Below are positions 61,958 to 63,298 of a stretch of 64,000 nucleotides of DNA, in pieces. The notes under the pieces were generated by a model. It did no database searches. It saw only the letters and a program-made list of their open reading frames with translations, and was not told the origin of the DNA. The position numbers and the translations under genes are program-made. Origin of the DNA: Archangium lipolyticum (lineage in GTDB: Bacteria > Myxococcota > Myxococcia > Myxococcales > Myxococcaceae); contig NZ_JANKBZ010000045.1 of NCBI RefSeq assembly GCF_024623785.1, positions 1 through 64,000 on the forward strand, in the 5' to 3' direction. Position 1 is the first letter of the stretch. Every line of letters starts with the position of its first letter.

Positions 61958-62557
61958 ATGTCGATCGAAAAACCGTTGCTGGAGATGGTGCAGGCGGAGC
62001 TCCGGACCCGGCTGGGGCCCATGCACAAGGCCGTCGCGCGCATGGGAGAGCGGCTGGATGTCATCGAGGAGCTGTCGGACATCGTCCAGCGCCTGGCGCC
62101 GTTGGCCACGCGGATGCAGTCATTGCAGCTGGCGCTGCCGGGCATCGAGTTGCCGCCGGTGGGCCGGGGCCGGGGCGGAGGAAGGCCGCCGGCGCTGGTG
62201 CCGGCGCCCCGGGGCAAGGTAGCGGAGGTGGTGCCCGAGAAGAGGCGGGGCCGTCCGCCGGAGGCAGCGGGACGCCGGTGCGCGGTCATCGGGTGCAAGA
62301 GGCCGGCGCGCTCGAAGGGGTACTGCTCGGCGCACTACCAGAAGCTGAGGTTGCTGGTGAAGTCGAACCGGCGGCCGGACAGCTGGGTGGACGACGCGGC
62401 GCCGCAGTCGGTGCAGGAAGTGGTGCTGCCGAGGGGCCGGGCGGCGTCGAAGGCATTGGCGGAGGCGGCGCCGCAGAGGCCGGAGCCGCAGACGCCGCCG
62501 AAGCCGAAGGCGTGGGTGAGGAAGAAGGGCGGCCAGGAGCGAATCTCGCTGCACTGA
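61958..62557 (+). CDS. AT-hook / zinc-knuckle DNA-binding-type protein
   Basis: 199 residues from the ATG at 61958; a GTG at 61940 with GGAGG nine bases upstream could add six residues. The N-terminus is helical (LLEMVQAELRTRLGPMHKAV). Two AT-hook-like motifs follow (GRGRGGGRPPA and RRGRPPEA). Next is a Cys/His cluster, CAVIGCKRPARSKGYCSAHY (C-x4-C-x8-C-x2-H), a small zinc-binding motif. The C-terminus is basic (PKPKAWVRKKGG). This composition suggests a chromatin-like DNA-binding protein. I do not know the family. Confidence 0.82.
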   Translation: MSIEKPLLEMVQAELRTRLGPMHKAVARMGERLDVIEELSDIVQRLAPLATRMQSLQLALPGIELPPVGRGRGGGRPPALVPAPRGKVAEVVPEKRRGRPPEAAGRRCAVIGCKRPARSKGYCSAHYQKLRLLVKSNRRPDSWVDDAAPQSVQEVVLPRGRAASKALAEAAPQRPEPQTPPKPKAWVRKKGGQERISLH

Positions 62558-62584
62558 GGAGGATCCGCCCCTCACCCAACGAAC

Positions 62585-62622
62585 ACCCCTCTCCCGCCGG
62601 GAGAGGGACGGGGTGAGGGTAT
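62585..62622. repeat. Intergenic palindromic repeat, copy 7
   Basis: CCCCTCTCCCGCCGGGAGAGGGACGGGGTGAGGGTATC is close to copies 1-3 and lies 28 bp after the AT-hook-like gene. Confidence 0.75.
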
Positions 62623-62651
62623 CCCGGTCCCCGGGCTCGAGCCCGTGCCAA

Positions 62652-62688
62652 TCCCCTCTCCCTCTGGGAGAGGGTCAGGGTGAGGGTC
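62652..62688. repeat. Intergenic palindromic repeat, copy 8
   Basis: TCCCCTCTCCCTCTGGGAGAGGGTCAGGGTGAGGGT, in tandem with copy 7 (same orientation, about 30 bp apart). Confidence 0.75.
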
Positions 62689-62794
62689 TGCCCGGGGACG
62701 ACCGGAGGCCGCCTGCTGCGCGAGCGGGTTGGGCCGTGGACCCCTGCCCCTGGGAGTCGTTGACACACCGTGCCGGGAGTGATTTCCGGCGGGC

Positions 62795-63298
62795 ATGAGC
62801 GATCAGTATCCGGTGACGGTGGCAGTGAAGCGCCCGGACGGGCGAGTGGAGCAGGTGCGAGTGGGGACGGCGACCCGAAACGGGGACGGGTTCACGCTGA
62901 AGCTGGGGGACATGACGATTGGAGGGACGCCGGACGCGGCGGCGGCGGCGCCAAGGCGGTCGGCCTCGTACGGTGGAGGAGGCGGCGGCGGTGGAGGTGG
63001 TGGAGGCTCGGCGGGGGAGGTCGCGGTGTTCCCCAACTACGGGCGGAGCAAGGGTGGACCCATCCGGGGCGCGAGCATGGGGGACCTGGAGTACTACGCG
63101 AACGGGGCGAGGCGCTCGCTGGGAGACCCGAGCAAGTCGCGGTGGCACGACCGGGAGCGGGCGTTGCTGGCGGCGATCGAGGCGGAGATCGCCCGGCAGC
63201 GAGGGGGCGAGTCCGGAGGGGGAGACGAGCCGCCACCGCACGGGGATGACGACTACAGCGGGGGTGGCAACGACGAGGACGGCGGCATTCCGTTCTAG
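62795..63298 (+). CDS. Protein with ExoX-C-like domain and SSB-like acidic tip
   Basis: 167 residues from the ATG at 62795. The N-terminus is a small beta-rich piece (PVTVAVKRPDGRVEQVRVG). A poly-Gly linker (about 60-71) leads to a block, FPNYGRSKGGPIRGASMGDL and EYYANGARRSLGDPSKSRWH, resembling the C-terminal domain associated with ExoX-type exonucleases. The last residues, DDYSGGGNDEDGGIPF, resemble the acidic SSB C-terminal tip (DDDIPF), which recruits DNA-repair enzymes. No OB fold is visible. A role with SSB-binding partners is inferred. Confidence 0.8.
   Translation: MSDQYPVTVAVKRPDGRVEQVRVGTATRNGDGFTLKLGDMTIGGTPDAAAAAPRRSASYGGGGGGGGGGGGSAGEVAVFPNYGRSKGGPIRGASMGDLEYYANGARRSLGDPSKSRWHDRERALLAAIEAEIARQRGGESGGGDEPPPHGDDDYSGGGNDEDGGIPF

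Follow-up and report, generated by a model that had tools for sequence, protein, structure and literature searches.

In bacteria, SSB coordinates the upkeep of the genome by way of its nine C-terminal residues, a tip regarded as SSB's own. In the recognition of this tip (SSB-Ct), the terminal Phe is buried, a basic lip accommodates its carboxylate and a basic ridge the Asp residues, and the penultimate Pro is also important (PMC10164576); RecJ binds SSB-Ct by the same mode (PMC4846377). For DdrB of Deinococcus, a purported SSB-like tail was found to be dispensable for radioresistance (PMC3834827). Here we describe a gene within a window of Archangium lipolyticum DNA (the whole stretch analysed, 64,000 nucleotides in length) whose product carries an SSB-like tip and belongs to a protein family undescribed before.

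Identification of the gene and predicted structure of its product

The open reading frame at 62795..63298 codes for 167 amino acids and terminates with GDDDYSGGGNDEDGGIPF, the stop codon following directly after NDEDGGIPF, and no match to PF00436 (SSB OB-fold) was detected in the product at E<=10, in agreement with a sequence-only reading of the same DNA that had claimed an SSB-like acidic tip on a non-SSB protein. The FPNYGRSKGGPIRG block and the poly-Gly linker (about residues 60-71) recorded in that reading are also present. Because the family is conserved in 99 of the 145 genomes of the order, usually as a single copy (protein search), the frame was taken as a real gene, with the following features.

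62795..63298, + strand: whole gene, 167 aa, ATG start; new family
62795..62926, + strand: small N-terminal beta domain, residues 1-44, with predicted strands 4-12, 18-29 and 32-37 (AF2 model and conserved column pattern)
62927..63022, + strand: low-complexity Gly-rich linker, residues 45-76 (AF2 pLDDT and alignment variability)
63023..63205, + strand: core domain, residues 77-137 (alignment, AF2 model and composition)
63206..63268, + strand: predicted disordered Gly/Pro/acidic linker, residues 138-158 (AF2 model, entropy and composition)
63269..63295, + strand: SSB-like C-terminal tip NDEDGGIPF, residues 159-167 (sequence and orthologue alignment)

In the AF2 model the block-mean pLDDT is about 67-83 for the N-terminal beta domain and 75-89 for the core, falls below 50 at residues 42-75 of the Gly-rich linker, which varies in length and sequence among members, and stays at 45-52 past residue 140, in the low-complexity, variable and predicted disordered tether that precedes the tip; confidence in the core fold is thus moderate to good, and that in the linkers low. 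The core consists of a conserved (F/L)P(N/P)YGRSKGxPI block (FPNYGRSKGxPI) and a predicted helical hairpin (helices 95-109 and 112-137), and shows 20 invariant columns in an alignment of 31 sequences including one phage homologue. It contains 11 K+R within 61 residues, and the tail contains 9 D+E.

The earlier reading had also labelled a block in the middle of the protein ExoX-C-like. By eye, the ExoX-like C-terminal domain (PF20600) and the core have in common a G-[KR]-x-[KR] loop and, after it, a helix containing an aromatic residue; this resemblance was confined to the eye, PF20600 giving no Pfam match at E<=10 in 41 family members and hhalign against seven ExoX-like_C segments giving a probability of 0.6% (E 0.097, 11 columns), and the ExoX-C identity was dropped.

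Distribution of the family and its gene neighbourhood

Searches of Pfam, NCBIfam, PHROGs and PDB sequences gave no credible family for the protein, the PDB sequence search returning 2wfb at E 0.02 across a 46-column stretch. Foldseek gave no hit at E<=0.001 against PDB (first model) or BFVD (both models), and VIA-align gave Z values up to 6.3 (rmsd 2.5, 56 residues), a level within the range that the tool calls common, mostly for ribosomal-protein chains with a helical hairpin. By protein search the listed f2 and f3 genomes are without the family, and among the matches listed in a phylum-wide profile search none lay beyond the order.

No family homologue was found in the phage and plasmid record collections. 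Two phage contigs encode homologues at 52-54% identity, L288 and L289. The beta domain is retained in L288, whose end is DDSGLPF. In L289 the beta domain is missing, but block and hairpin are kept and the end is DDDIPF; what is conserved as a unit is thus the block with the hairpin and the tip. Near L289 lie a PD-(D/E)XK exonuclease gene and a gene whose product weakly matches DUF968.

The neighbourhood of the family gene gives no hint of function: upstream, a putative zinc-finger gene (61958-62557, + strand; a WRKY19-like match too weak for the Pfam cut-off) stays near it in many members, covering much of the family, and the other neighbours vary. Between these two genes, at 62575-62700, short palindromic-looking repeats resembling scattered REP-like elements were seen by eye.

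Conservation of the C-terminal tip

Conservation of the tip in orthologues had been named beforehand as a check, and the result was positive: xPF after an acidic run forms the C-terminus of 83 of the 88 full-length orthologues (IPF in 61, APF in 20, VPF and PPF in one each; consensus PPPxDDDxPF), and both phage homologues keep the terminal Pro-Phe. The other five lack the terminal PF, and with it the tip. Among 41 aligned divergent members, the C-terminal Phe is present in 38 and the penultimate Pro in 36, and tail entropy reaches its minima at the last two residues (0.49 and 0.72 bits) and at position -6 (0.70 bits), as against about 2.4-3.3 bits at positions 16-30 from the end. Acidic residues occupy positions -4 to -6 in 71-90% of the family, and the linker upstream varies freely and changes fast among orthologues. 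The terminal xPF triplet is written with 13 different codon triplets; taken together with the entropy minimum, this speaks for selection acting at the level of the peptide.

That the tip is a functionless chance product of a low-complexity acidic Gly/Pro tail would accord with the low complexity of this tail and with the five tip-less orthologues, but the dip in entropy over the final two residues, the varied codons, the retention of the tip in phage homologues and the few matches to a reversed control pattern all speak against it. A chance origin is largely refuted by the entropy and codon data and the phage homologues, and we regard it as very improbable.

In the window copy, DEDGGIPF, the acids are at -6 to -8, set back by two residues from the usual -4 to -6, and the ends of its relatives (DDDNIPF, DDDIPF, DEDAPF) are nearer to that of SSB; its affinity may be lower than theirs, the acids being displaced. 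In one orthologue (L046, genome G103) the sequence passes into another frame within the Gly-rich tail and the tip is lost, which could reflect a frameshift or an assembly error.

In a few genomes there are short paralogues (for instance L102-L104, L106, L107 and L110), in which the second half of the core is retained but neither the YGRSKG block nor the tip is present. Since these tail-less paralogues have neither, the tip and the YGRSKG block are coupled. This coupling fits the main alternative, in which the acidic tip is autoinhibitory and folds as a nucleic-acid mimic onto basic residues on the surface of the same protein (R84, K86, R106, R107, K114 and R116), tuning nucleic-acid binding without SSB partners. 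The 11 basic residues of the core against the 9 acidic residues of the tail fit this explanation, and in the RNA chaperone Hfq acidic C-terminal tips are reported to act as autoinhibitors (PMC5606850). Charge alone, however, would not need a conserved Pro-Phe at the extreme end, nor would it call for a shared tip on XseB and SSB, the unrelated proteins described below, and we consider autoinhibition unlikely, while still deserving serious weight.

The same tip on SSB and XseB

The source genome's own SSB, its sole SSB match and located elsewhere in the genome, ends with GGGDDDIPF, and all 39 primary SSBs checked end with DIPF; the pockets of partner enzymes for the tip should therefore be maintained. 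Scanning of the source genome with DNA patterns for [DE][DE]x[TIMAV]PF-stop, which cover these patterns rather than the full proteome, identified SSB and XseB, the small subunit of exonuclease VII. This XseB ends with PPPEDDVPF, and its gene adjoins that of XseA, which supports the assignment as genuine. In ten relatives, the recurrent matches with a real stop were SSB, XseB and the family of 62795..63298, the remaining ones being singletons. The XseB tip was present in 24 of 27 genomes with the family gene and in one of 28 without it, counts that come from related genomes and are not independent samples in a Fisher test; G084 and G121, with the XseB tip and with no full-length family copy found, are omitted from this table. 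The XseB tip and the family tip mark the same lineage. In the open-access literature, no report was found in which XseB or this family is described as carrying the SSB tip.

Some other proteins with similar ends were seen. A looser scan of the source genome added one acidic end, that of a PLD-like protein (G000:C30, L252:1825-2700, - strand) which terminates with YDGDIPF and carries zinc-ribbon-like cysteines and an internal EDDDIPF. Three proteins occur each in a single genome: L322 (G139), apparently of NYN type by eye, with a GDDEIPF end; L321 (G076), with zinc-ribbon-like cysteines by eye and a KADDDIPF end; and L300 (G112), with a PDDGIPF end.

The conservation of one tip on SSB, XseB and the family could also be explained if the tip binds to the OB folds of SSB, the family protein and exonuclease VII riding on SSB-coated ssDNA instead of meeting the SSB partners. 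It has been proposed that the SSB tail contacts the OB fold of SSB itself, but this contact is considered weak. The receptors described are the partner enzymes (PMC10164576, PMC4846377), and this explanation appears to us improbable.

Proposed function

We lean towards a model in which the protein is a small adapter whose tip imitates the C-terminus of SSB and fits into the same pockets of repair enzymes. The helical hairpin, the YGRSKG block and the many basic residues would associate with DNA or a DNA-bound complex, usually accompanied by the N-terminal beta domain, and the flexible linker presents the C-terminal copy of the SSB tip, which would bind at the Phe pocket and basic lip found on SSB-interacting repair enzymes, for example RecJ, RecO, RecG, RecQ or PriA. 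These enzymes would then either be brought to the site of the adapter or become the object of competition with SSB.

The features required by known pockets (Phe, carboxylate, Pro and acids) are all conserved in the family tip, the tip is retained in phage homologues at 52-54% identity, and one of these lies near the exonuclease and DUF968-like genes. Against docking, the acids of the window copy are displaced, Ala is found at -3 in 20 of the 88 orthologues, five orthologues are tip-less, the neighbour genes differ between groups and are not evidently those of DNA repair, and DdrB provides a precedent of a dispensable SSB-like tail (PMC3834827). Of the sequence-only reading as a whole, the proposal that the protein may bind or bring in the partners of SSB has gained support, within the reach of sequence comparison, from the conservation of the tip, its SSB-Ct-defining features and the same tip on XseB, while the ExoX-C label finds no support.

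The presence of the same tip on XseB in the same lineage suggests a docking code shared by SSB, exonuclease VII and the family. More tentatively, the tip might serve in Myxococcales as a general docking code on three unrelated proteins, by which SSB-coated DNA, exonuclease VII (through XseB) and the adapter share the pocket-bearing repair enzymes, the phages also carrying the adapter and possibly redirecting the host enzymes with it. Conserved natural copies of the tip on exonuclease VII and a new family would make SSB one hub among others. The model of recruitment or competition is directly testable, Myxococcus xanthus being an established laboratory strain of the group.

Comparison with known systems

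The family tip and SSB-Ct (DFDDDIPF in E. coli) are alike in the order of a disordered linker, an acidic run and a C-terminal Pro-Phe. Unlike SSB, the family protein has no OB domain and no match that would make it an SSB paralogue; position -3 can be Ala, whereas the SSBs checked keep Ile; and the acids are displaced in the window copy. DdrB differs in being an ssDNA-annealing protein. XseB of the same lineage is likewise a non-SSB protein of DNA metabolism with a conserved SSB-like tip, but differs in being a known enzyme subunit of unrelated sequence, and XseBs from other lineages are mostly without the tip.
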